DNA of 64,000 nucleotides from NCBI GenBank assembly GCA_001516025.1, contig LOEU01000017.1:1-64000 (forward strand), in the 5' to 3' direction. This DNA comes from a bacterium BRH_c32. GTDB lineage: Bacteria; Bacteroidota; Ignavibacteria; Ignavibacteriales; Melioribacteraceae. The translations under genes and the position numbers were made by a program. Shown piece by piece: positions 2,177 through 43,790 of the stretch (the first letter of the stretch is position 1; every line of letters begins with the position of its first letter). The notes under the pieces are model-generated. The model saw only the letters and a list, made by a program, of their open reading frames with translations, was not told where the DNA came from and searched no databases.

Positions 2177-4228
2177 TTAATTATATGTCGGCAGGAACGA
2201 AAACTTATTTGAATAATAGATCAACTGATTAGTAAAATCATCGGGATATTCCACAATTATATCTTTGATCGTATTGCCATCCATAACAGGTTTTAATACC
2301 GGATTAATAAAACCCGCATAAGGAGCAATCTTTAATTTAGCATAACGCTCCAATACTTCTTTATGAATTACTGGATCTACTTTCACTCCATAAGTCTCAA
2401 CAAGATTTTTACCTGATTGGAAATCACCCTCTGATTTAATACGTTGAATTTCGCGAAGCAGATCACCAAATAGTGTTTTTAATTTTTCATAATCATTGAC
2501 AACAAAATATGTTTTTCCATCTTTGATTTTCTTTTCTATAACGTTATCCTTCATTCCTTTTTCATAAGCCCATTGAGCAATAAGCATACGGTTACGCATG
2601 TGTGCTTCTTCAATATTATCACCCGGCTTAATCCGTGCAAGTTGAGTAAGGAGCGCATTTCGTATATAGGAATCATACTGAGCTTTGCCGGCTTCGAGCG
2701 ATGGCATAACTTCGATATCAACTAATTTTTTATCGAAGATATAATATAATGCAACAAGATCGGCACGTGCTTCTTCCAAAGTGGAAGAATAATTTTTTAA
2801 AGTTTCGTTCGGCTGTCCGATGCCCGGATTTAATTGCCCCGAAGCATGACCGATTACTTCGTGCATATCAGTATGAAGATCATCGCTCAAAGCCCCAAAC
2901 TCTTTTCCTCTTTTTATCTGCTCATCGCTATAAGCAAATTCCTCTAAAACACCGCTCGTGGCAGATGCCATATTATATGCATGAACTATATTACCGAGAT
3001 TTACCGATTTCGATCCGTAATCTTTTCTAATCCAATCGGCATTTGGTAGATTGATTCCTATTGGTGTAGATGGAGATGCATCGCCCGATTCCGAAACCAC
3101 CGTTATTACTTTACCTGAAATACCGGTTACATTTTTCTTTTTATGCTGCGGCATTAATGGCGAATTATCCTCGAACCATTGTGCATTATCGCTTATAGCT
3201 TTAATTCTTTTTGTTGCCTCCAAATCCTTAAACGAAACCACCGATTCATAAGAAGCACGATACCCGAGCGGATCGCCATAAGTCTCAATAAATCCATTCG
3301 TTATATCGATCATCGATTCGGTATCTTTAACCCATTCGATACAATATTCGTCAAACTTTTTGAGGTCTCCTGTTTTATAATATTCAATCAAAAGCTCTAA
3401 AGTTTTTTTCTGCTGATCGTTTTCGGCTACCGTAACTGCCTTTTCCAGCCAATAAACTACCTGCTCAATTGCCTTTGAATACATACCGCCTACTTTCCAC
3501 ACTTTTTCTTGAATTTTCCCATTTGTTTTAATCATTTTGGAATTTAATCCGTAAGAAACAGGCGTGGAATCTTGCGGATCCACTATCGCTTTATAATAGT
3601 TCTCAACTTCCTGCTGTGTAACGCTTTCGTAATAATTAATTGCAGAAGTTTTTATTAAATCAATATCAGGTGCTTGATTGGTTTTGATAGCGTCCACATT
3701 TGGATCAAATAAAATCGGTTTAAGTTTTTTTAGAAGTGCACTTGCATCCTCGCCCGATTGAAGCGGAAGAAGTTCATCATTAGTTCCTCTTACTAATCTT
3801 TCAAAATAAGGATAAGAGAATTCAGGCATAAATTTCCGGTTAGAATAATGATGATGAATTCCGTTTGAAAACCAAACTCGCTTTGTGTATTCTTCAAATT
3901 TTGCAAATTCAGGATCGGTTCTATCTCCTTTATAATCTTTTAGAATAGCTTCGAGTGTTCGTTTTATATAAAGATTATGTTTATAATTTTGATCGAAGAT
4001 TATCTCTCTGCCGCTTTGAGCTGCCATTGAAAGATAATAGAGAAGTTCTTTTTGTTTGAGCGAAAGTTCTTCAAATCCGGGTATCTGATACCGTTGAATT
4101 TTGAGATCGGCAAATTGCTCCGTTACATACTTAAAATCTTTTTCCTTTACTGCGGGTTCCGGCTTACTGCAATTCATAACTATTAATCCCACTAAGATAA
4201 ATGACAAAATATATTTTACTCTTTTCAT
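2177..4228 (-). CDS. Dipeptidyl-peptidase III-like (M49) zinc peptidase, lipoprotein
   Basis: This protein of about 683 residues belongs to the M49 family, which removes dipeptides from peptide N-termini using one zinc ion. The zinc motif is visible as HEVIGHASGQ (HExxGH) with the second motif EEARADLVALY (family EECRAE/EEARAD) about 30 residues later. The N-terminus is a lipoprotein signal (ILSFILVGLIVMNCS), so the enzyme is probably membrane-anchored in the periplasm or at the surface. I chose the ATG at 4228 because AGGA sits 7 nt upstream; the longer reading begins at a TTG two codons earlier. It is probably monocistronic, with the next gene upstream separated by a terminator. Substrate specificity is not deducible. 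Confidence 0.88.
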   Translation of the reverse strand: MKRVKYILSFILVGLIVMNCSKPEPAVKEKDFKYVTEQFADLKIQRYQIPGFEELSLKQKELLYYLSMAAQSGREIIFDQNYKHNLYIKRTLEAILKDYKGDRTDPEFAKFEEYTKRVWFSNGIHHHYSNRKFMPEFSYPYFERLVRGTNDELLPLQSGEDASALLKKLKPILFDPNVDAIKTNQAPDIDLIKTSAINYYESVTQQEVENYYKAIVDPQDSTPVSYGLNSKMIKTNGKIQEKVWKVGGMYSKAIEQVVYWLEKAVTVAENDQQKKTLELLIEYYKTGDLKKFDEYCIEWVKDTESMIDITNGFIETYGDPLGYRASYESVVSFKDLEATKRIKAISDNAQWFEDNSPLMPQHKKKNVTGISGKVITVVSESGDASPSTPIGINLPNADWIRKDYGSKSVNLGNIVHAYNMASATSGVLEEFAYSDEQIKRGKEFGALSDDLHTDMHEVIGHASGQLNPGIGQPNETLKNYSSTLEEARADLVALYYIFDKKLVDIEVMPSLEAGKAQYDSYIRNALLTQLARIKPGDNIEEAHMRNRMLIAQWAYEKGMKDNVIEKKIKDGKTYFVVNDYEKLKTLFGDLLREIQRIKSEGDFQSGKNLVETYGVKVDPVIHKEVLERYAKLKIAPYAGFINPVLKPVMDGNTIKDIIVEYPDDFTNQLIYYSNKFSFLPTYN

Positions 4229-4325
4229 AAACAATTCCTATAAGTTATAGTTTATTTTCCTAACGAAAGCGTAAAATATGGTTTTTGTGATTCCTTTACA
4301 AAGAAAGTTTTATAAGCGGTGAGTG

Positions 4326-4383: not shown

Positions 4384-5289
4384 TTAGAATGAATCGGGGA
4401 GATTAATCGATTCTGCAGGAACTATCTGTTTTGTTCCCGAAGGTTTTGTCCAGAATAATCTCATTGCTATATTAAAACGCGGTCCTTGGAAATAATCTAC
4501 TCTTAATTTATGTTCTCCGGCAGTTAGAGCCACTTTATTCGATGTTACTTCATAATATCCGTGAGTTCCATCGGCATCGACAACTAACTTATCGTCAATG
4601 TATAATTTAGAACCGTCATCAGAGCCGAGAGTGAATGAATAGTCGCCTGCCTCTGTAATAACAAGTTTGCCGTCAAAACGGATACCGAACCACTCTACCA
4701 ATCCGCCCGGTACACCCGGAAATCCATCGCTGAATGAACGAGTGGGAACATCTAAATTCGGAGCTAATACCATACTTTTTACTTGCATTGTTGCGAAATC
4801 GGGCAATTTTGCAGTATTGGCAGGAAGTTCATATACTCTACCAATTAATCCTTTTCCTGCAAGCAAATTGTTGCCGAACGCAGATGTAGTTATTCCATAA
4901 ACCTGAGTAGTCGTATTTGTTGTAGTTCCCTTTGGAGTTTTTACTACGATATCGTTTCCTTGTGGAGATGTATCGATATTCGCTGGAACTTTTACTGTAA
5001 TTTTCGATTGTTCGATCAATTCAATTATACCGGCAATCTGCTGAGAAGTAGCCCTGCTCTTAAAAAACACATTGACGTTTGAAGCTTTCGTTCCGAAATT
5101 CTCTCCTTTGATATAGATATATCCATTAGCTAAAGCAACCGAGGGGAAAATTTCACTAATTTTTGGATCACCTTTATAATCGGCATCGTTTCCGGTATCA
5201 GGCGAAGCCGGATCATCACTTTTACTGCATCCTGCTAATAAAATAACCGCAAAAAACAATATCGATATCTGTCTTGTAATTAATTTCAT
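4384..5289 (-). CDS. Lipoprotein with IPT/TIG and PA14 domains
   Basis: This 301-residue lipoprotein has a signal ending AVILLAGC (Cys21), followed by a Ser/Asp-rich linker. Residues about 40-130 form an IPT/TIG-type immunoglobulin fold (KISEIFPSVALANGYIYIKG, then paired valine strands). Residues about 145-295 form a PA14 domain, a beta-barrel that often binds carbohydrate, with the marker GDYSFTLGSDDGSKLYIDD and the final strand AMRLFWTKPSG. AAGGAG lies 7 nt before the ATG. It stands last in a run of three envelope genes on this strand. A surface glycan-binding role is an inference from the PA14 fold. Confidence 0.8.
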   Translation of the reverse strand: MKLITRQISILFFAVILLAGCSKSDDPASPDTGNDADYKGDPKISEIFPSVALANGYIYIKGENFGTKASNVNVFFKSRATSQQIAGIIELIEQSKITVKVPANIDTSPQGNDIVVKTPKGTTTNTTTQVYGITTSAFGNNLLAGKGLIGRVYELPANTAKLPDFATMQVKSMVLAPNLDVPTRSFSDGFPGVPGGLVEWFGIRFDGKLVITEAGDYSFTLGSDDGSKLYIDDKLVVDADGTHGYYEVTSNKVALTAGEHKLRVDYFQGPRFNIAMRLFWTKPSGTKQIVPAESINLPDSF

Positions 5290-5376: not shown

Positions 5377-6465
5377 TTATTTCATTAAAAGCATTTTCTG
5401 ATTAATATTTATTCCTTCTGATTTCAAGCTATAGATATATATTCCACTTGCGAGATTTGAAGCATCAAAACTTACCGTATGGAAACCGGCATCTTTTGTT
5501 CCATTTACTAATGCCGCTACTTCATTACCAAGTATATCATAAACCTTCAATTGAACATTTCCTGATTTAGGAAGTGCATAGGTAATGTTGGTTGTTGGGT
5601 TAAATGGATTCGGATAATTTTGATATAATTTAAAATCGACCGGCATAGAAGCCATTTCATCAGCTACGCTTGTAGCACTTCCACGTCCTTCTGCATAGCT
5701 TACACCCGAAACATTAACTACGCCTGAATTACTAGTAACGCCATCAGCTAAAGATACCGTTACTGATTCGCCTGTTTTTGTAATAAAGGCATAGGAAATT
5801 GACGTCGAAGTCGTTCCGTTTACTGTTTGAGTCTCTTCGCTTCTAACTCTTAAACAGTCTAATGTTTTTCCGTCAGGTGTTTTTAATTTGCCATAACCAT
5901 CGACTGTATATTTTTCGGTAGAATTAAGAGGGATAGAATTAACAATATTATTACCAAAAACCGATGTTGTTGTTTCCGTAACTCCGCTAACTGTAATATT
6001 TGCCGAGGAATTATATGTCAAAGGCAAATTATAAAGAACGCGAGCGGGATTGTATTTTATTTTCACTACTGTATTCATACCCGAGATTGTAGTAGCCGTA
6101 CCAACTCCATTAAGCAGATATTTTCCGCCCGTTACAGATGTATGAACCCAAGATTGTGCCGGAACTCCCATGCTTACAGTTTCATAGTATAGGGAATATT
6201 GTGTGCCCGGAAAATCTGATTGATATGGTGAGCTAGAAGTTGATTTACCATTCGATACAAATGTGTAATCGAATGTTAAATTACTAAAATCATAAACTTG
6301 ATTACCCGTACTTCCGATATTTGCAGAGGTCATTGATGTATTAGCATGTGTAATAAAATTATAGTCTTGCTGTAATCCTAATATAACATCTGCTTCCGTT
6401 AATGAAATCTGAGCGTAAGTGCTCGTAAAAGCGATTACCAATAAAAGTAGTATATATTTTTTCAT
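5377..6465 (-). CDS. Secreted protein with type IX sorting domain
   Basis: This 362-residue protein starts with a classical signal peptide (KKYILLLLVIAFTSTYAQ) and ends with a type A sorting domain (about 280-362) carrying NYPNPFNPTTNITYALP and the terminal KMLLMK. It is therefore exported through the inner membrane by Sec and through the outer membrane by type IX secretion. The central region is Ser/Thr/Val-rich, predicted beta, and I do not recognise a catalytic domain in it. A strong AGGAGG precedes the ATG. Its neighbours are two lipoproteins in the same orientation with gaps of about 80 bp, suggesting shared transcription. Confidence 0.82.
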   Translation of the reverse strand: MKKYILLLLVIAFTSTYAQISLTEADVILGLQQDYNFITHANTSMTSANIGSTGNQVYDFSNLTFDYTFVSNGKSTSSSPYQSDFPGTQYSLYYETVSMGVPAQSWVHTSVTGGKYLLNGVGTATTISGMNTVVKIKYNPARVLYNLPLTYNSSANITVSGVTETTTSVFGNNIVNSIPLNSTEKYTVDGYGKLKTPDGKTLDCLRVRSEETQTVNGTTSTSISYAFITKTGESVTVSLADGVTSNSGVVNVSGVSYAEGRGSATSVADEMASMPVDFKLYQNYPNPFNPTTNITYALPKSGNVQLKVYDILGNEVAALVNGTKDAGFHTVSFDASNLASGIYIYSLKSEGININQKMLLMK

Positions 6466-6547: not shown

Positions 6548-7306
6548 TTAGTTTACTGTAACATTTACAGATTTTACTATTTCAGCGATTAAGTAATAAT
6601 CTTTACCGCCCGATGAAACCTTGTTATAATTATATTTCACTACCTGAAGAAGTGCCTGTCCTGAAATGCCCGATAAATCGGAAGAAGTAAAAGAATAATT
6701 CCCATTATCAGAAAGTGCTTCTTTGGAAAAAGTTTTGCCATTGCTAACTTGCGAGATAACTACAAAAACTTTACTGCTTGTTCCACCGCTCCATGTCGCT
6801 TGAAAACCATTTTTACTTACGGCAGCATCTTTAACGGGTGCGCTAAGTGTGAAATTTGTGGGACTATTAACTGATCCGTTTATTGCCGAGACACCGTTGC
6901 CACCAGCAACAGTCCATGTATGCGCAGAGCCATTAAAATTTACGCCGCTTAAAGTAGCCGTTGGATTGCTTGGGTTGGGTGCCATATAATAAGTTTTGCC
7001 GCCGGTTTTCATTGTTGCGATTGAATTACTATTAACAGAAACTGCTCCAGCATCGGCACCTTCTGCCAATGAAGCGAAAGCCATCTGCATCTGAATCGCA
7101 GGGAAACCGGGTACGGGTGCTGCCATTTCATATTGTATAGTAGCTAAAACGCCGTTGCTTCCGTCCATTTTAGGCAGCGGCTGTCCGCTTGCATTTGAAG
7201 AACCGCTCGGAGTTGAAGGTTCGGTGGGACTGTCTTCACTTTTGCATCCTGTAAAAGTGATTGCAGCAACTAGTAATAAAACTGAAAATAATTTATAATG
7301 CTTCAT
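6548..7306 (-). CDS. Lipoprotein of unknown function
   Basis: This 252-residue protein has a lipoprotein signal (LLLVAAITFTGC, Cys20) followed by a Ser/Pro/Thr-rich linker. The remainder is rich in Gly, Ser, Asn and Val and looks like beta sandwich; no catalytic motif is apparent. AGGAGG lies 5-7 nt before the start. It is the first of three consecutive envelope genes (lipoprotein, sorting-domain protein, PA14 lipoprotein), which may form one surface complex. Function is unknown. Confidence 0.7.
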   Translation of the reverse strand: MKHYKLFSVLLLVAAITFTGCKSEDSPTEPSTPSGSSNASGQPLPKMDGSNGVLATIQYEMAAPVPGFPAIQMQMAFASLAEGADAGAVSVNSNSIATMKTGGKTYYMAPNPSNPTATLSGVNFNGSAHTWTVAGGNGVSAINGSVNSPTNFTLSAPVKDAAVSKNGFQATWSGGTSSKVFVVISQVSNGKTFSKEALSDNGNYSFTSSDLSGISGQALLQVVKYNYNKVSSGGKDYYLIAEIVKSVNVTVN

Positions 7307-7360: not shown

Positions 7361-7573
7361 TCAGTCTAGAATCGAATTTTTATTTTCTTTGCTTTTAAGT
7401 TCGAAACTTTGCGGATTAGCGATTATATACTCTATATCCATTTTTTCGCATATACTTTCGGCGGCGGTTTTATCCGTTACGGTAATCAAACTGAAACCTT
7501 CTTTCGAAAGAAGCTCTCTTAATTTTTTTAACCGTTCTTTGCCAGAATCGATAATGAGTATATTTCCGTTCAT
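7361..7573 (-). CDS. Truncated, degenerate response-regulator receiver-like protein
   Basis: This 70-residue reading frame starts like a CheY receiver domain: GNILIIDSGKERLKKLRELL matches strand 1 and helix 1, and a second strand SLITVTDKTAAESI follows. The place of the phospho-accepting Asp reads YIIANPQSF, so that residue is not an aspartate, and everything after strand 3 of the fold is missing. The ribosome-binding site is weak. It lies between a sigma-54 activator gene and a lipoprotein gene, all on the minus strand. It could be a remnant of a regulator or a small non-phosphorylated protein; whether it is expressed is uncertain. Confidence 0.5.
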   Translation of the reverse strand: MNGNILIIDSGKERLKKLRELLSKEGFSLITVTDKTAAESICEKMDIEYIIANPQSFELKSKENKNSILD

Positions 7574-7935
7574 CCATTTTCTTTTATTTATAGACTACAC
7601 TAAACAAAGGACATGCCATCTCAATTTGGCTTAAAAAGGGGACATTGTGGGTTATTTGTTGCAGCAGGACAACGTGTCGGATTTAACTGTGTTGCATTTA
7701 TGCGACAGCGACTCAATTGATACAGTGTCAATTATTAGGAAAATTAATTATCCGGTTTAAATCATAGAAAAATGTGAGCTGTTTTGAAAAACAAAGGATG
7801 AGGTAAGCATTGCAATGGAAAATGCAGTATAGTCGAGAATTACAGCGTCGAGTCTCCATTGTAATTTGTTACATGGGAGAATTCAAAACTAGAAACGATA
7901 TAACAATAACCTTCTAGTCATTTAAACAGATTTTT
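7574..7935. other. Gene-free stretch between receiver fragment and sigma-54 activator
   Basis: These 362 bp contain no reading frame that I can support. They should hold the 3' end of the activator transcript and the promoter of the downstream minus-strand genes. I looked for a sigma-54 promoter (GG at -24, GC at -12) and found only poor partial matches around 7665-7685. No hairpin with a T run was found. Confidence 0.4.
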
Positions 7936-9660
7936 TTACGGTTCTATTCCAAGCTGAGAAAGGAGCTTATGCAGGTGGCTCCGGTTTATACCAAGTATCT
8001 TCGCCGCATCGGATTTCGATTTAACCTTTTTTAATATTTTACCTATATAAAGTTTCCGAAACTCTTCTTCGGCTTCCGATAATGTTTTTTCCAACGAAGC
8101 ACTGACAGTATCATCTTTCAAATCGACAATCTCTTGAGGAAGATCATCTATTGTTATTTCATTGGTCTTGGAAAGAATTACACTCCTCTGAATAATATTT
8201 TCTAATTCTCTAATATTTCCGGGAAATGAATATTGCTCTAATACATCAAGAGCTTCATCGCCAATTGTATATCTACTGCCGCTTTCGGAATGTTTAAGTA
8301 AGAAAAATTTTGCCAGCTCTTCAATATCATCTTTTCTTTCACGCAGCGAAGGAAGTTTTATTTCAATTACCTTAAGACGATAGTATAAATCCTCTCTGAA
8401 TAATTTATCTGCTATCATTTCCGATATATCTTTGTTGGTAGCGGCTATAAAACGCACGTTTATTTTCTTTGATGTAATTCCGCCGAGACGTTCGATCTCT
8501 CGAGTCTGGATTACACGCAATAGTTTTGCTTGAAGATTGATTGTCATTTCGCCAATTTCATCGAGGAATATCGTACCTCCATCAGCGGTTTCTAATCGTC
8601 CCGGCTTGCTTTTAATAGCACCGGTAAATGCACCCGTCTCATAACCGAATAACTCCGATTCAAGTAGATCAGCGGGAATAGCACCGCAATTAACGGCTAC
8701 AAAGGGCTTCTCTTTACGAGGTGAATTTTCATGAATTGCCTGTGCTAATAAATCTTTACCCGTTCCATTTTCTCCTAGTAGCAAAACCGAAGCATCACTT
8801 TCGGCTACCTTTGCAGAGAGCTTTAGAATTTCATATAGTTTTCTGCTCGACCCGATTATTCTGTCATAATTGAATTGACTTCTTAGTTCCATAAAATCGA
8901 TACAGCTTTTTTCTTGAAGTTTCTTTTCTAAATAATTTATCTCGAGCGAGACTTCCATTCCTCTTACTATCTGGCGAGCAAATGAAATTAGAAATGTTAA
9001 ATCTGTTTCTTTGAACGGTATATTCCTATTTCTTCTATCGATATAAACCACACCAAGAATTTTATTATTTGAAATTAAGGGGACACTTAATGCCGATGAA
9101 AGTTTTAGCGATATAACACTTAATTTATTTACAAGATCAGGGTGAGTATTAATATCATCTATCTTTAAAGGTTCTGATTTTTCTATTGTTTCGGCGATAA
9201 TTGATGTGCTTAATTCTTTTGCTGTTGGATCATTCTCGGGATCGAGATTCTTTGCTACTATCTTTTCTATCTGCTTCATTTCGTCCATTAATACAATGAA
9301 ACCTTCATCAGCATCTAATTCCTTAACCACAGTTTCGATTGCCGTTTCCATTAGTCTTCGCATATCGGTTTCCGATTGGAATTGAATTCCCGAAGCATAC
9401 AGCCGTTCCAAACGAATCTTTTCATTATTAAGCTTTGAAAAATTCGATTCAATTTTTTCGCACTCTTCAATAAGCTCTTTTATATCGTTGCTTATACCTC
9501 TATTAAAATCCATAATTTTTCTGAATAGGCGATCGATATCTTTTCCGAGTTCAGGAGTATCTTTCACTTTATTAGAAAGATCAACGAAACCTTGCGAAAG
9601 TTGGGAGACAAATTCACCGATTGATTTATTCAGTTGCTGATTTTTTATTTTAGTATCCAT
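7936..9660 (-). CDS. Sigma-54-dependent transcriptional activator with GAF sensor domain
   Basis: This 574-residue NtrC-type protein activates promoters that use RNA polymerase with sigma-54. Order of parts: helical N-terminus predicted to form a coiled coil (1-90), GAF domain (about 95-240) in place of a receiver, AAA+ ATPase (about 265-490) with Walker A GENGTGKD near residue 295, the sigma-54 contact loop GAFTGA near 343 and Walker B GGTIFLDEIGEM, then a Fis-type helix-turn-helix at the end (AAKILGINRSHLHKLLSQLG). It begins 11 bp after the stop of the kinase gene upstream, so the two are probably co-transcribed and the kinase may control it. With no receiver, input must come through GAF or the N-terminal helices. 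Confidence 0.92.
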   Translation of the reverse strand: MDTKIKNQQLNKSIGEFVSQLSQGFVDLSNKVKDTPELGKDIDRLFRKIMDFNRGISNDIKELIEECEKIESNFSKLNNEKIRLERLYASGIQFQSETDMRRLMETAIETVVKELDADEGFIVLMDEMKQIEKIVAKNLDPENDPTAKELSTSIIAETIEKSEPLKIDDINTHPDLVNKLSVISLKLSSALSVPLISNNKILGVVYIDRRNRNIPFKETDLTFLISFARQIVRGMEVSLEINYLEKKLQEKSCIDFMELRSQFNYDRIIGSSRKLYEILKLSAKVAESDASVLLLGENGTGKDLLAQAIHENSPRKEKPFVAVNCGAIPADLLESELFGYETGAFTGAIKSKPGRLETADGGTIFLDEIGEMTINLQAKLLRVIQTREIERLGGITSKKINVRFIAATNKDISEMIADKLFREDLYYRLKVIEIKLPSLRERKDDIEELAKFFLLKHSESGSRYTIGDEALDVLEQYSFPGNIRELENIIQRSVILSKTNEITIDDLPQEIVDLKDDTVSASLEKTLSEAEEEFRKLYIGKILKKVKSKSDAAKILGINRSHLHKLLSQLGIEP

Positions 9661-9671
9661 ATTCTCAACTA

Positions 9672-12600
9672 TTAGGAAAATTGATTTAACAAAATTAATA
9701 TTTCTTTGAATGATCCGTTTCTATCATCAGGATTTTTTTCTAAACATTTTTTAACAAAAGAATTTAGTTCAAGCGGAATCTCGGGATTGATTTCCTTTGG
9801 CTCAGGCGGTACGGTATTAAATATCGAATGTATAAGAGCAATCTCATTCTCTCCGGTAAATGGAAGTTTATTCGTGCACATTTGATAAGCTACTACACCA
9901 AAAGAAAAAATATCAGTCCTTTGATCCACCTGAACATTTGTTATTTGTTCCGGGGCTACATAGCCGAGAGTTCCTATAACCGTTCCGAGCGATGTCATAG
10001 TCGATACTAATGGCGATTTTGATAATCCAAAATCCATTATTCTTATATTTCCCGATTCATCAAACATTATGTTTTGTGATTTCAGATCACGATGCAAAAC
10101 ATTATTCTCGTGAATTAATTCCATCCCTTCGCTAATTTGTTTTAATATATTAATTATTTCAGTAGGGGGAATCGGAAAATTATTCTTTATATAATCATCT
10201 AAAGTTCCGCCACTTAAATATTCCATCGCAATAAAGCTATGTTTTTGCGTCTCGCCATATTCATAAACTTTAACAATATTTTTATGATCGAGAGATGAAA
10301 GAAGGCGTCCTTCCGAATTTAACCTTCTCTTATTTTCTTCATCCGAGACTAATTGTGAATTAAGAACTTTAATTGCCACAGTGTTCCCATTTTGCGAATC
10401 AATGGCTTTAAATACTTTTCCCATTCCGCCAATTCCGATTATCTCCGTTACCTTATAGTGCGAAATATAACTGCTCTCTTTTTTATCAATATATTGGGAA
10501 CCATAATAAATAAAGGCAACAAGGACTCCACCTAAAAAAAGAGGATTAAAAACAAGCGAAAAAACAAAACGATAATCGATCGTAAAATGAATCAATAATA
10601 AATAACCGAATACGAGAACTAATACAAAATACCATTTAGTTATAGTTTTATAAATCACTTTGTTCCTTGAGTAATAGTAGATGCCAGCGGTAATTAGCAA
10701 CAATAGCAGTAGTTTAATTATCTCTTGAACAAAATTTAATTTTAGTATAGACCGACTCAATGATTTATATATTTGAATAAAATTATGAGAAATAAAACTC
10801 GACTCGGTTACTTTATATAATTTACCAATATCGACTACGTCAATATTTTCTTTTATTCCCGATGGAAATTCTACAACTGCTTTATAATTATATTTGGGGT
10901 TAATTCCAAAATGAACAACGGGATTATTTTGTTGCGAGATAGGGCTATCGCCAAGACCGATACTTTTACGCGAACTATATATCAATTTATTCTCTTTATT
11001 AAATGCCGATAAGATAACCGAAGTCCCAATGCCGTCCCTATTGCTTAAATCAGCAATGATGCCAAACTTAACAAAATTTCTATTCGTTAAATTATTGCGG
11101 TAAAGAATTGCTCTATCACCTTTACCTAGCGATTCACGAGAGCTCCCGATAAATAAATCTTGATCACCATCATTATCAAAATCATTAAAAGAAGGATTGC
11201 CTATAAATGAAATACCGACATCTTTACCTACTTCTTCAAAATAGAACTCGGGAGAATTAATAAATAATCGTTCCCCGATAAAAAGATCTAACCAGCCATC
11301 ATTATTAATATCTTCAGCATTCAAAATTCCGTTTGATGGATCTTTATGCATAAGATCCATATCGAGACCAATTCCCGTTTTATCAATAAACGATGCATCC
11401 CCTTTATTTATAAGTACCGTAAGCCGGTCTTCGTTACTGAATGCAATAATATCAATAAATCCATCATTATTAATATCTTCGGATATTGATGAATAGAAAT
11501 TTCCGGCAATCCCGTTTTTAGCATAAAATGTTTCATCTTTCTTCTCTTTGAATTTGAAATCCCCTTTATTCAAAAAAAAGAATAGATGTTGATCTTTCTC
11601 ACCTGCTTTATATGTAAGCAAAATATCGATAAGTCCGTCATTATTATAGTCCGCAAGATTAGCCCCATAAGAACGATGATCGATTAATTTCTTCAATCCC
11701 GAATTTTTATAAACATTCTTAAACTTACCAACACCATTATTTTGAAAAAGCATATCGCCATAATTGTGGTTATATAGAAATATATCGAGATAGCCGTCAT
11801 TATTAAAATCGGCGGCTTTCATACCCGCTAATGGCAGATTATTTTGTATATAATCGAAATCAATTAATTTCTCTTCGCTCGGCTCGAAATCTAAATCACC
11901 ATCTCCAAATGAATAGGTATAATTAACGTCATCAAGGAGTTCGATTAAATCTTTATTTCCATCATTGTCGAAATCAGCGATTAATGCGGTATGACTCATT
12001 TTAATTTGATTTTTTTTATTCATATCGCGAGCCATTTCCGAGAAGATTCCATCACCTTGATTTTTATATACGATATTCGGAGCGGCTTCAGAAATTACAA
12101 AGAGATCAGCAGGTTCATCAATGCTATTACTAAAAAATATTCCGGCTATTCCATCTCTCCTTAAAGATGCTTGAGAAGTTACGTCGGTAAAAGAAAAATT
12201 TATACTCTGTGAATTGGTATAAATCCCGTTATATCCTATTACCCAAATACGAAATGAACCGTCATTATCTTTTATTATATCTATATCCGAGAAAAAATCA
12301 TCAAACACTTTTATCGATTCATTTTCAATCCATTTGCCTTCCTTTAATTCTAATAGTGTTGAGCGATCGCCTACTATCCAGGCTTTCTCTCTGCTAACTG
12401 CTTTTATAGAATATAACCCAACGCGAAAATTATTTTCAACAATTTCCCATTTACCATCGAGATAATTAAGAATAATACCTTTATCACCTACTATCCAACC
12501 GAAATCTTTATCCACCATTGAAATTTTACTTAACCCTGTTTCAACCGGTGATTTATATTTTCTCCAAGTTCCGTTTTCGTATTTAAGTATTACTCCGCTT

Positions 12601-13217
12601 TTTCCTACTGCCCACCCTTCATTATCGGAGACCATTTCAATGTCTTCGAGATCACCCTGCATATAATTTTCCCCTTCTTTTCTAAGAACGGGACTGAATT
12701 GAGTAACCCATTTTTTACCATCATAATAAACTATATTCCCTTGCTGACCAACAGCCCACGCCTTTCCACTCTTAGTAATAGAAAGCCCCATTAACATTGC
12801 ATAATCAATAGTATCCCACATCATTTTTGGTAGATTAATTCTCTCTTCTTTTCCATTTTTAATTGATGTTAGTATTGGTTGATACTTTCCCAAATGAGTT
12901 AGATGATTAATTACCCATACCGAACTATCGGGCAGCATCCCTAATTGAGGAGAATCAGAATAAGGATAATCAAATATTGGTTCCCAGCTTTTTCCATCGA
13001 AACGATATAAAACTCCCCTTACACTTTCGCCCTTTCCTCTTGAGACTGCAATTCCAAAATCTTTGCTATACATTTTTATTTTTGAACCTAAATCCAAAGA
13101 AGACTGCATAAACCAAACTTCATTTCTCGGTTTAATTGATTCGTTTTTGGAGTTTTGTTCTTTGCAGCTTATTATAGATATTATCGCAAGGACTAAAAGA
13201 AGAATTTTTTTCAACAT
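9672..13217 (-). CDS. Lipid-anchored propeller/FG-GAP/ASPIC protein with cytoplasmic Ser/Thr kinase
   Basis: This protein of about 1181 residues is an unusual receptor-kinase chimera. Parts in order: lipoprotein-like signal (LVLAIISIISC, Cys18); about five YCF48-like propeller repeats of the form WAVGKSGVILKYENGTW (about 130-320); six FG-GAP/VCBS repeats with calcium loops such as DFDNDGNKD (about 400-690); an ASPIC/UnbV-type domain (about 700-790); three membrane spans (about 825-905); and a complete Hanks-type kinase (about 915-1181) with GIGGMGKVF, VAIKVL, HRDLKSQN, DFGLSK and APEQ. An exported N-terminus plus three spans puts the kinase in the cytoplasm. I took the ATG at 13217, which starts the signal directly; the longer frame begins at a TTG. 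It is followed after 11 bp by the sigma-54 activator. Confidence 0.88.
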   Translation of the reverse strand: MLKKILLLVLAIISIISCKEQNSKNESIKPRNEVWFMQSSLDLGSKIKMYSKDFGIAVSRGKGESVRGVLYRFDGKSWEPIFDYPYSDSPQLGMLPDSSVWVINHLTHLGKYQPILTSIKNGKEERINLPKMMWDTIDYAMLMGLSITKSGKAWAVGQQGNIVYYDGKKWVTQFSPVLRKEGENYMQGDLEDIEMVSDNEGWAVGKSGVILKYENGTWRKYKSPVETGLSKISMVDKDFGWIVGDKGIILNYLDGKWEIVENNFRVGLYSIKAVSREKAWIVGDRSTLLELKEGKWIENESIKVFDDFFSDIDIIKDNDGSFRIWVIGYNGIYTNSQSINFSFTDVTSQASLRRDGIAGIFFSNSIDEPADLFVISEAAPNIVYKNQGDGIFSEMARDMNKKNQIKMSHTALIADFDNDGNKDLIELLDDVNYTYSFGDGDLDFEPSEEKLIDFDYIQNNLPLAGMKAADFNNDGYLDIFLYNHNYGDMLFQNNGVGKFKNVYKNSGLKKLIDHRSYGANLADYNNDGLIDILLTYKAGEKDQHLFFFLNKGDFKFKEKKDETFYAKNGIAGNFYSSISEDINNDGFIDIIAFSNEDRLTVLINKGDASFIDKTGIGLDMDLMHKDPSNGILNAEDINNDGWLDLFIGERLFINSPEFYFEEVGKDVGISFIGNPSFNDFDNDGDQDLFIGSSRESLGKGDRAILYRNNLTNRNFVKFGIIADLSNRDGIGTSVILSAFNKENKLIYSSRKSIGLGDSPISQQNNPVVHFGINPKYNYKAVVEFPSGIKENIDVVDIGKLYKVTESSFISHNFIQIYKSLSRSILKLNFVQEIIKLLLLLLITAGIYYYSRNKVIYKTITKWYFVLVLVFGYLLLIHFTIDYRFVFSLVFNPLFLGGVLVAFIYYGSQYIDKKESSYISHYKVTEIIGIGGMGKVFKAIDSQNGNTVAIKVLNSQLVSDEENKRRLNSEGRLLSSLDHKNIVKVYEYGETQKHSFIAMEYLSGGTLDDYIKNNFPIPPTEIINILKQISEGMELIHENNVLHRDLKSQNIMFDESGNIRIMDFGLSKSPLVSTMTSLGTVIGTLGYVAPEQITNVQVDQRTDIFSFGVVAYQMCTNKLPFTGENEIALIHSIFNTVPPEPKEINPEIPLELNSFVKKCLEKNPDDRNGSFKEILILLNQFS

Positions 13218-42743: not shown

Positions 42744-43790
42744 ATGAAGAGGTTAAAAGTTATTATTATTTTCGCAATTAGTCTTATAGCTGTCTCAACG
42801 GTCTCGGCACAGGATTTACTTAATACATATTTCAATGGAAATAAGGATAGTTTAGTCGCGGCGGCTACTAATCTAATCAATATGCCAAATCCCACTTTCA
42901 GTCAATTCAAATCTGATCAAATTAATACAACTGCATCATCTGACAACGAACCAACAAACAATGCTACCGATTATTATTTCTCGATAAGAGATAATCATAA
43001 AATATTTGCTTACAAATTTACCAATAAATCACCAAACACTATTATTCTCATTCACGGAGTAAAAAGTAGTGCTATTAATTACCAAAAAACGGCCCAAATG
43101 TTGCAACAAGCAACGCAAGCCGAAGTTTATGCTTTAGATTTGAGGGGACATGGAAAATCGGAAGGCAAACCGGGCGATGTGGACTATATCAATCAATATG
43201 CTGATGACTTAGCTAATATTGTTAGCTCTATTCGTAAGAATAAACCGAATGGAAAAATTATTATTGCAGGTCATTCAATGGGTGGTGGTATAGCTCTACG
43301 ATACTCAATGGAAAATTACAATGATAAAGTTGATGGCTTTTTACTTTTTGCTCCTTTGCTTGGAAATAATTCGCCGGCATTTCAAAAAGAAGAAGCTTCC
43401 AATAATGACAGCACTGAAGCATTTATGAAAATCCATATTGCTCGAATTATTGGATTGAAAATGTTAAATGAAATCAATAGACATGATAATGATAGTTTGC
43501 CTGTTTTATTTTTCAATTTACCGATAGGAACACCACTAAGAGAATATTCTTACCGAGCAAATGCAAGTATGGCACCGGATAATTATATTGATGGCTTAAA
43601 AAGTGTAAAAGTTCCACTGCTTGTTTTAGTGGGCGATAAAGATGAAGCTTTTGTTGCAGAAGAACAACAAAAAGCAGTTTTGGAAAATAGCAAAGGAGAA
43701 GTAAAAATTATTGAAGGGGCAACACACAACGGACTAAGACTTAATCAAAAAGCTTTTCAATTAATAACTAAATGGTTTTCAAAACTTTAA
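42744..43790 (+). CDS. Exported alpha/beta hydrolase (lysophospholipase/monoglyceride lipase type)
   Basis: This protein of about 348 residues has a signal peptide (LKVIIIFAISLIAVSTVSAQ) and an alpha/beta-hydrolase domain of the Hydrolase_4 type. Visible are the oxyanion strand TIILIHGVKSSAINY, LDLRGHGKSEGKPG, the nucleophile elbow IIAGHSMGGGIAL, the late acid VLVGDKDEAF and catalytic His in EGATHNGLR. The ATG at 42744 was chosen because it starts the signal and has AGGA 9 nt upstream; the longer frame starts at a TTG. Its stop overlaps the sigma-factor start by one base (TAATG). It probably cleaves lipid or carboxyl esters in the periplasm. Confidence 0.85.
   Translation: MKRLKVIIIFAISLIAVSTVSAQDLLNTYFNGNKDSLVAAATNLINMPNPTFSQFKSDQINTTASSDNEPTNNATDYYFSIRDNHKIFAYKFTNKSPNTIILIHGVKSSAINYQKTAQMLQQATQAEVYALDLRGHGKSEGKPGDVDYINQYADDLANIVSSIRKNKPNGKIIIAGHSMGGGIALRYSMENYNDKVDGFLLFAPLLGNNSPAFQKEEASNNDSTEAFMKIHIARIIGLKMLNEINRHDNDSLPVLFFNLPIGTPLREYSYRANASMAPDNYIDGLKSVKVPLLVLVGDKDEAFVAEEQQKAVLENSKGEVKIIEGATHNGLRLNQKAFQLITKWFSKL

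Follow-up and report, generated by a model that had tools for sequence, protein, structure and literature searches.

A transmembrane signalling system based on a Ser/Thr kinase is probably encoded in the window (the whole stretch of 64,000 nucleotides that was analysed): a sensor kinase would switch a sigma-54 activator, which in turn would fire sigma-54 promoters linked to a palindromic site. We assign to this reading a probability of about 0.6. Sequence comparison revealed a conserved trio of genes, a recurrent arrangement of palindrome and promoter and a set of genes lying behind such promoters. The trio reads as follows:

9672 to 13217, minus strand: sensor Ser/Thr kinase of 1181 residues (from domains, alignment, AlphaFold model and motif reading)
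7936 to 9660, minus strand: sigma-54 activator of 574 residues (from Pfam and alignment; its orthologs adjoin the kinase in each of the 12 carriers)
7361 to 7573, minus strand: half-receiver of 70 residues, the first half of a receiver (β1-α1-β2-α2-β3) with the acceptor Asp replaced by Asn

The kinase gene starts with an ATG codon, an alternative TTG upstream lengthening the protein by 12 residues, and it is separated from the activator gene by 11 bp. Re-reading left the gene coordinates, the protein size and this gap unchanged from the initial annotation, and most of the architecture described there was recovered. The lipoprotein-like N-terminal signal ends in IISC, with Cys18 invariant across 11 aligned kinases, and the previously noted propeller corresponds to a Pfam match to YCF48/PSII_BNR at residues 91–213. 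Besides matches to FG-GAP_3 repeats, six calcium-type DxDxDGxxD motifs (at 415, 470, 523, 581, 636 and 679) were counted in the FG-GAP region, as many as the repeats claimed, and three hydrophobic stretches (ca. 829–847, 862–880 and 885–903) agree with the three membrane spans. The ASPIC domain was only partly borne out: UnbV_ASPIC is matched by four of ten members of the kinase family (best E-value 6.7e-7) but not by the window protein in a Pfam search even at E 0.1, so that the label is valid at the family level only and the predicted part is listed as an ASPIC-like sandwich. The 'outer face' to which the sensor had been assigned is to be understood as the inner membrane's periplasmic face. 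An AlphaFold model (pLDDT 79, ten sequences) predicts a strand-rich portion up to residue ca. 804, followed by three long helices and the kinase domain, whose best structural matches are PknB. The Pkinase match covers residues 921–1168 (E=4e-63), and K950, E969, H1042-R1043-D1044 (HRD), N1049 and D1062-F1063-G1064 (DFG) are invariant in 11 kinase sequences. With the fold, the lysine, the C-helix glutamate and the HRDxKxxN and DFG motifs all in place, the protein is, as judged from its sequence, an intact Hanks-type Ser/Thr kinase, as previously annotated, and may be catalytically active.

With the PASTA kinases of the PknB/Stk1 type the window protein shares a PknB-like cytoplasmic kinase domain, an extracytoplasmic sensor and a membrane span. 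It does not belong to that equivalog family, as it scores 288.7 bits against an NCBIfam cut-off of 450, the match is confined to the kinase domain, and Pfam detects no PASTA repeats in it. It also differs in having the kinase at the C-terminus, a lipoprotein-like start, two propeller regions and three spans in place of PASTA repeats and one span, and a dedicated activator gene alongside. An identity as an anti-phage defence kinase was considered and rejected: the PADLOC matches listed, in the kinase confined to residues ca. 911–1180, reflect generic kinase and AAA+ domains, and no defence context was seen.

The activator is composed of an N-terminal helical region, a GAF domain (97–233), an AAA+ domain with GAFTGA, a lid and a conserved HTH-like C-terminus. 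Its AAA+ domain with intact GAFTGA and Walker motifs and its DNA-binding-type C-terminus mark it, by sequence, as a sigma-54 activator; the Fis-type HTH_8 model finds no match, and the C-terminal helices are conserved in the alignment. As the initial annotation had observed, a receiver domain is absent according to Pfam, which separates the protein from the NtrC-class response regulators. NifA is its best NCBIfam match, at 385 bits below the cut-off of 529, and the protein is thus not assigned to NifA. The GAF-AAA+-HTH-like layout with GAFTGA is nevertheless that of the receiver-less NifA/NorR-like activators, from which the window protein differs by its ties to a transmembrane Ser/Thr kinase and a half-receiver and by a palindrome of its own, TGTYGC-N6-GCRACA.

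A search for the gene pair in other genomes, suggested in the initial annotation, detected a whole-kinase ortholog in 12 out of 58 genomes from the order, counting the present genome and also G024, where the kinase is split over two contigs. The top-ranking activator orthologs, all with E<1e-150 and followed by activators that do not go beyond 1e-98, occur in the same 12 genomes and adjoin the kinase in each, so that a kinase lacking a co-occurring activator did not turn up among them. Order and orientation of the two genes are conserved over 12 genera in two families. When the sample was widened by a scan of named genomes (Melioribacteraceae, Stygiobacter and Ignavibacteriaceae), the pair was found separated in four loci: genes for an ammonium transporter, a porin and PII separate the kinase from the activator in L158 and L163, and no activator is found near the kinase in L164 and L203. 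All four genomes contain the orthologous activator and the half-receiver. An association that outlasts the loss of linkage argues for a function rather than only for shared transcription. That the genes are chance neighbours without any functional link might be argued from the large number of sigma-54 activators in these genomes, but the complete co-occurrence, kept also where the genes are separated, and the conserved arrangement reduce its probability to almost nothing, and we reject it. Strong support for the earlier proposal of a single signalling system made up of kinase and activator comes from this co-occurrence, from its persistence upon separation and from the promoters, site and regulon described below. 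The inserts themselves (L158 9555–11964 and L163 11004–13617, in Melioribacteraceae/Stygiobacter), with an ammonium transporter, a porin-like protein and PII, hint at a possible nitrogen link.

The half-receiver gene downstream of the activator had been overlooked in the initial annotation. Pfam Response_reg is matched weakly by all ten aligned half-receivers, by the window protein over model positions 1–48, and the predicted fold is β1-α1-β2-α2-β3 (pLDDT 82); all but one of the PDB matches listed are receivers, pseudo-receivers or response regulators. A complete (βα)5 receiver with an acceptor Asp is not present, as only the N-terminal half exists and β4-α4-β5-α5 are missing. At the acceptor position the half-receivers of the order carry N, S, E, K or R in place of Asp, and among three more distant ones Asp is kept in L169 only. 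Stand-alone and pseudo-receivers are thus related in sequence and predicted fold to this N-terminal half, which is about half their length and has the acceptor replaced. The gene was found in 11 of the 12 kinase carriers and in none of the 46 other genomes (Fisher p=5e-11), not counting three weak extra matches at the starts of long response-regulator frames, and also in all five extra genomes tested. A spurious reading frame was ruled out on account of the conservation in 11 carriers, a codon variation of 0.46/0.35/0.65, highest at the third position, and the predicted receiver fold. In two genomes (G047 and G052) the half-receiver is inserted between kinase and activator, and in G010 it resides on another contig, where the type of control site before it and the lipoprotein after it are unchanged.

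This distribution bears on an indirect route, in which the kinase would modify the half-receiver or some other adaptor, and the state of that protein would decide whether the activator is inhibited or helped. The nearly perfect co-occurrence of the half-receiver with the pair, even when unlinked, and its lack of an Asp for classical phosphorylation speak for such a route. However, G032 retains kinase and activator without a half-receiver, which is thus not strictly required, and with its gene placed behind a promoter that the activator is itself predicted to fire, a role in output or feedback suits it better than one in input. We therefore consider the indirect route unlikely and favour feedback: the half-receiver probably acts back on the activator, though it may instead serve as an adaptor or a kinase substrate.

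The control region upstream of the half-receiver contains three elements:

7690 to 7707, no strand: enhancer-like palindrome TGTCGCATAAATGCAACA (pattern scan)
7657 to 7674, no strand: second, weaker palindrome CGTTGTCCTGCTGCAACA with two mismatches (read directly from the sequence)
7603 to 7618, minus strand: -24/-12 sigma-54-type promoter TGGCATGTCCTTTGTT

The exact 18-bp motif TGTYGC-N6-GCRACA occurs once in the 3.49-Mb genome, at 7690–7707, 80 bp from the promoter; the two palindromes are 33 bp apart, and tandem palindromes recur at 32–34 bp across genomes. Exact palindromes were found in 8 of 12 carriers compared to 5 of 46 non-carriers (p=2e-4). Among 75 sites with at most one mismatch examined in carrier genomes, a part of all such sites there, 28 are intergenic, and 20 of these are accompanied by a -24/-12 match at 30–130 bp, versus 4.2% of random positions; with the half-receiver loci left out, 11 of 17 still pass, and intragenic sites are near background once three in doubtful frames (L137, L161) are discounted. 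The distances between palindrome and promoter cluster at 38, 46–48, 56–58, 67–69 and 77–82 bp, about one DNA turn apart, and the helical phasing of R=0.78 was reached by none of 5000 simulations; these statistics include homologous loci, which are not independent, and a motif that was defined after inspection of these loci. Phased palindromes and tandem spacing are the behaviour expected of the enhancers of sigma-54 activators. The sigma-54 promoters whose search the initial annotation had recommended thus exist as predictions, together with a matching enhancer-like site and a predicted regulon. Computationally, the enhancers are phased with the -24/-12 promoters, and we infer their binding by this activator, the HTH region of which is conserved along with the palindrome site. 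A similar site at window position 43652 was taken as a chance occurrence because it is inside a reading frame. Elsewhere in this genome (L147 4746; G000:C15:105745), a one-mismatch palindrome is located near the start of a 217-residue frame, divergent from a gene for a PAS-type sigma-54 activator.

The regulon was sought by sequence patterns only. In the window, two genes behind the half-receiver were assigned to it:

6548 to 7306, minus strand: lipoprotein-like protein of 252 residues, a conserved predicted regulon member
5377 to 6465, minus strand: secreted protein with a T9SS tail, a probable regulon member with relatives after the half-receiver in G019 and G024

The lipoprotein, ca. 255 residues long in general, is a predicted target in seven genomes at 38–51% identity. 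Further predicted targets comprise an outer-membrane barrel of ca. 180 residues, here located at C36:93194 with TGGCACGTCCTTTGAT and adjoining the half-receiver operon in G009 and G022, secreted proteins of ca. 400 residues in G023 and G032 (68% identical), and exported proteins of 630–844 residues in G009 and G022. The predicted targets are related between genomes, and those named, except the half-receiver, look exported, which agrees with a published account that places the bacterial exterior under sigma-54 control (PMC3162934). Sites without such a target exist among those examined, e.g. L138 and L150. Behind the predicted operon and on the same strand, genes for a PA14/TIG lipoprotein (4384–5289, minus strand) and an M49-family peptidase (2177–4234, minus strand) may or may not share the transcript.

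The kinase and activator inventory of this genome contains a second case. Two of its three Hanks kinases adjoin a receiver-less GAF activator. Of ca. 20 sigma-54 activators with a readable reading frame, 15 have a receiver-like sequence at the start, as checked with Pfam for five, and no kinase is linked to any of the 15; both kinase-linked activators are receiver-less GAF types. The second pair is positioned as follows:

G000:C36:142676-145768 (L048 6677-9769): second kinase-activator pair of this genome

Its operon encodes a lipoprotein, a GAF activator of ca. 495 residues, a kinase of ca. 520 residues and two exported proteins, and the pair is adjacent in all 17 loci opened, a list picked from matches in which both genes were close. 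In the activator tree, the window family groups with the activators of L166, L168 and L169 (support 99/95); the window pair and the second pair may or may not share a common origin. The second pair is widespread in the order (L080–L095). Its Hanks kinase is cytoplasmic, and an NPLDP-type lipoprotein and exported proteins are encoded in the flanks; this genome's copy of the kinase contains a PEGA domain. Up to ten Hanks kinases of ca. 700–1400 residues stand in tandem in genomes of family f3 (G037:C13, G056:C12 and G057:C95).

Outside the order, kinase, activator and half-receiver lie side by side in L168 and L169, all three genes are present in the Calditrichota genome of L167, and the FG-GAP sensor and the activator are kept in L166, a 'Deltaproteobacteria' MAG; these occurrences rest partly on single MAG contigs, in which binning errors are possible. 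In the L167–L169 kinases, a Reg_prop and Y_Y_Y sensor like that of hybrid two-component systems (HTCS) is fused to a Ser/Thr kinase, where HTCS have a histidine kinase. As the same partners accompany Reg_prop/Y_Y_Y and FG-GAP sensors, the output module is stable and the sensor exchangeable.

Receiver-less GAF activators of the NifA and NorR type are switched elsewhere by ligands or partner proteins, and the kinase therefore need not act on the activator itself. A small molecule bound at the GAF domain might switch the activator, with the kinase as a separate regulator of envelope proteins or as a target or modulator, the two sharing a process but no phosphotransfer. The presence of the GAF domain, a type accounting for ca. 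10% of surveyed sigma-54 activators (PMC3162934), and the fact that the two genes can be unlinked are compatible with this proposal. It is, however, rather improbable in view of the two genes both being kept where they are unlinked, of a second operon that has the same kinase and GAF-activator make-up and looks independent, and of an output module that remains stable when the kinase changes its sensor part.

In the favoured reading, in which the kinase switches the activator, we propose the following scenario: A signal would be received by the periplasmic double-propeller sensor, which is tethered by its lipidated N-terminus and three spans and controls the cytoplasmic PknB-like kinase. The kinase, we infer, switches the receiver-less GAF/AAA+ activator by phosphotransfer, most likely onto its N-terminal or GAF region. 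The activator would then bind to the tandem palindromes ca. 33 bp apart and fire the -24/-12 promoters, thereby producing lipoproteins, outer-membrane barrels and T9SS-type secreted proteins as well as the half-receiver, which would probably feed back on the activator.

Each part of the system belongs to, or derives from, a known family, and the combination was not found described in the literature covered. Like NtrC two-component systems and the HTCS of Bacteroides, it couples a transmembrane sensor to a dedicated activator; in contrast to them, a Ser/Thr kinase replaces the histidine kinase and the activator lacks a receiver. The window sensor, of YCF48/FG-GAP type, is also unlike the HTCS combination of Reg_prop/Y_Y_Y, histidine kinase and receiver, which the divergent trios resemble by their sensor. 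Myxobacterial Ser/Thr kinases are linked to developmental gene activation, as in FHA-domain sigma-54 activators and Pkn14-MrpC; compared with these systems, the window pair is a dedicated gene pair and has no FHA domain. A survey of sigma-54 activators distinguishes two-component, PAS and GAF types, the word 'serine' being absent (PMC3162934), and a review of transcription control by Ser/Thr kinases in Gram-positive pathogens contains neither NtrC nor sigma-54 by the terms searched (PMC4601284). In the literature covered, which is incomplete and in which absence is no proof, no kinase-activator pair of such kind was found.

The trio might represent a class of its own among bacterial transmembrane signalling systems, occurring in Ignavibacteria, Calditrichota and related MAGs, a reading to which we give an even chance: a propeller Ser/Thr kinase, a GAF sigma-54 activator and a half-receiver modulator, with exchangeable sensors (YCF48/FG-GAP or Reg_prop/Y_Y_Y) and an enhancer code of its own for cell-surface genes. 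The known switches of sigma-54 activators are histidine kinases, ligands and partner proteins, and a dedicated transmembrane Ser/Thr kinase in this role would parallel two-component control. As sensor, activator, DNA site and target genes are all named here, phosphorylation of a sigma-54 activator by a Hanks kinase and the ensuing promoter opening become directly testable. The role of an Asp-less half-receiver in a Ser/Thr kinase system is a new question; if the reading is true, this protein would represent small regulators of a new type, made from half a receiver.
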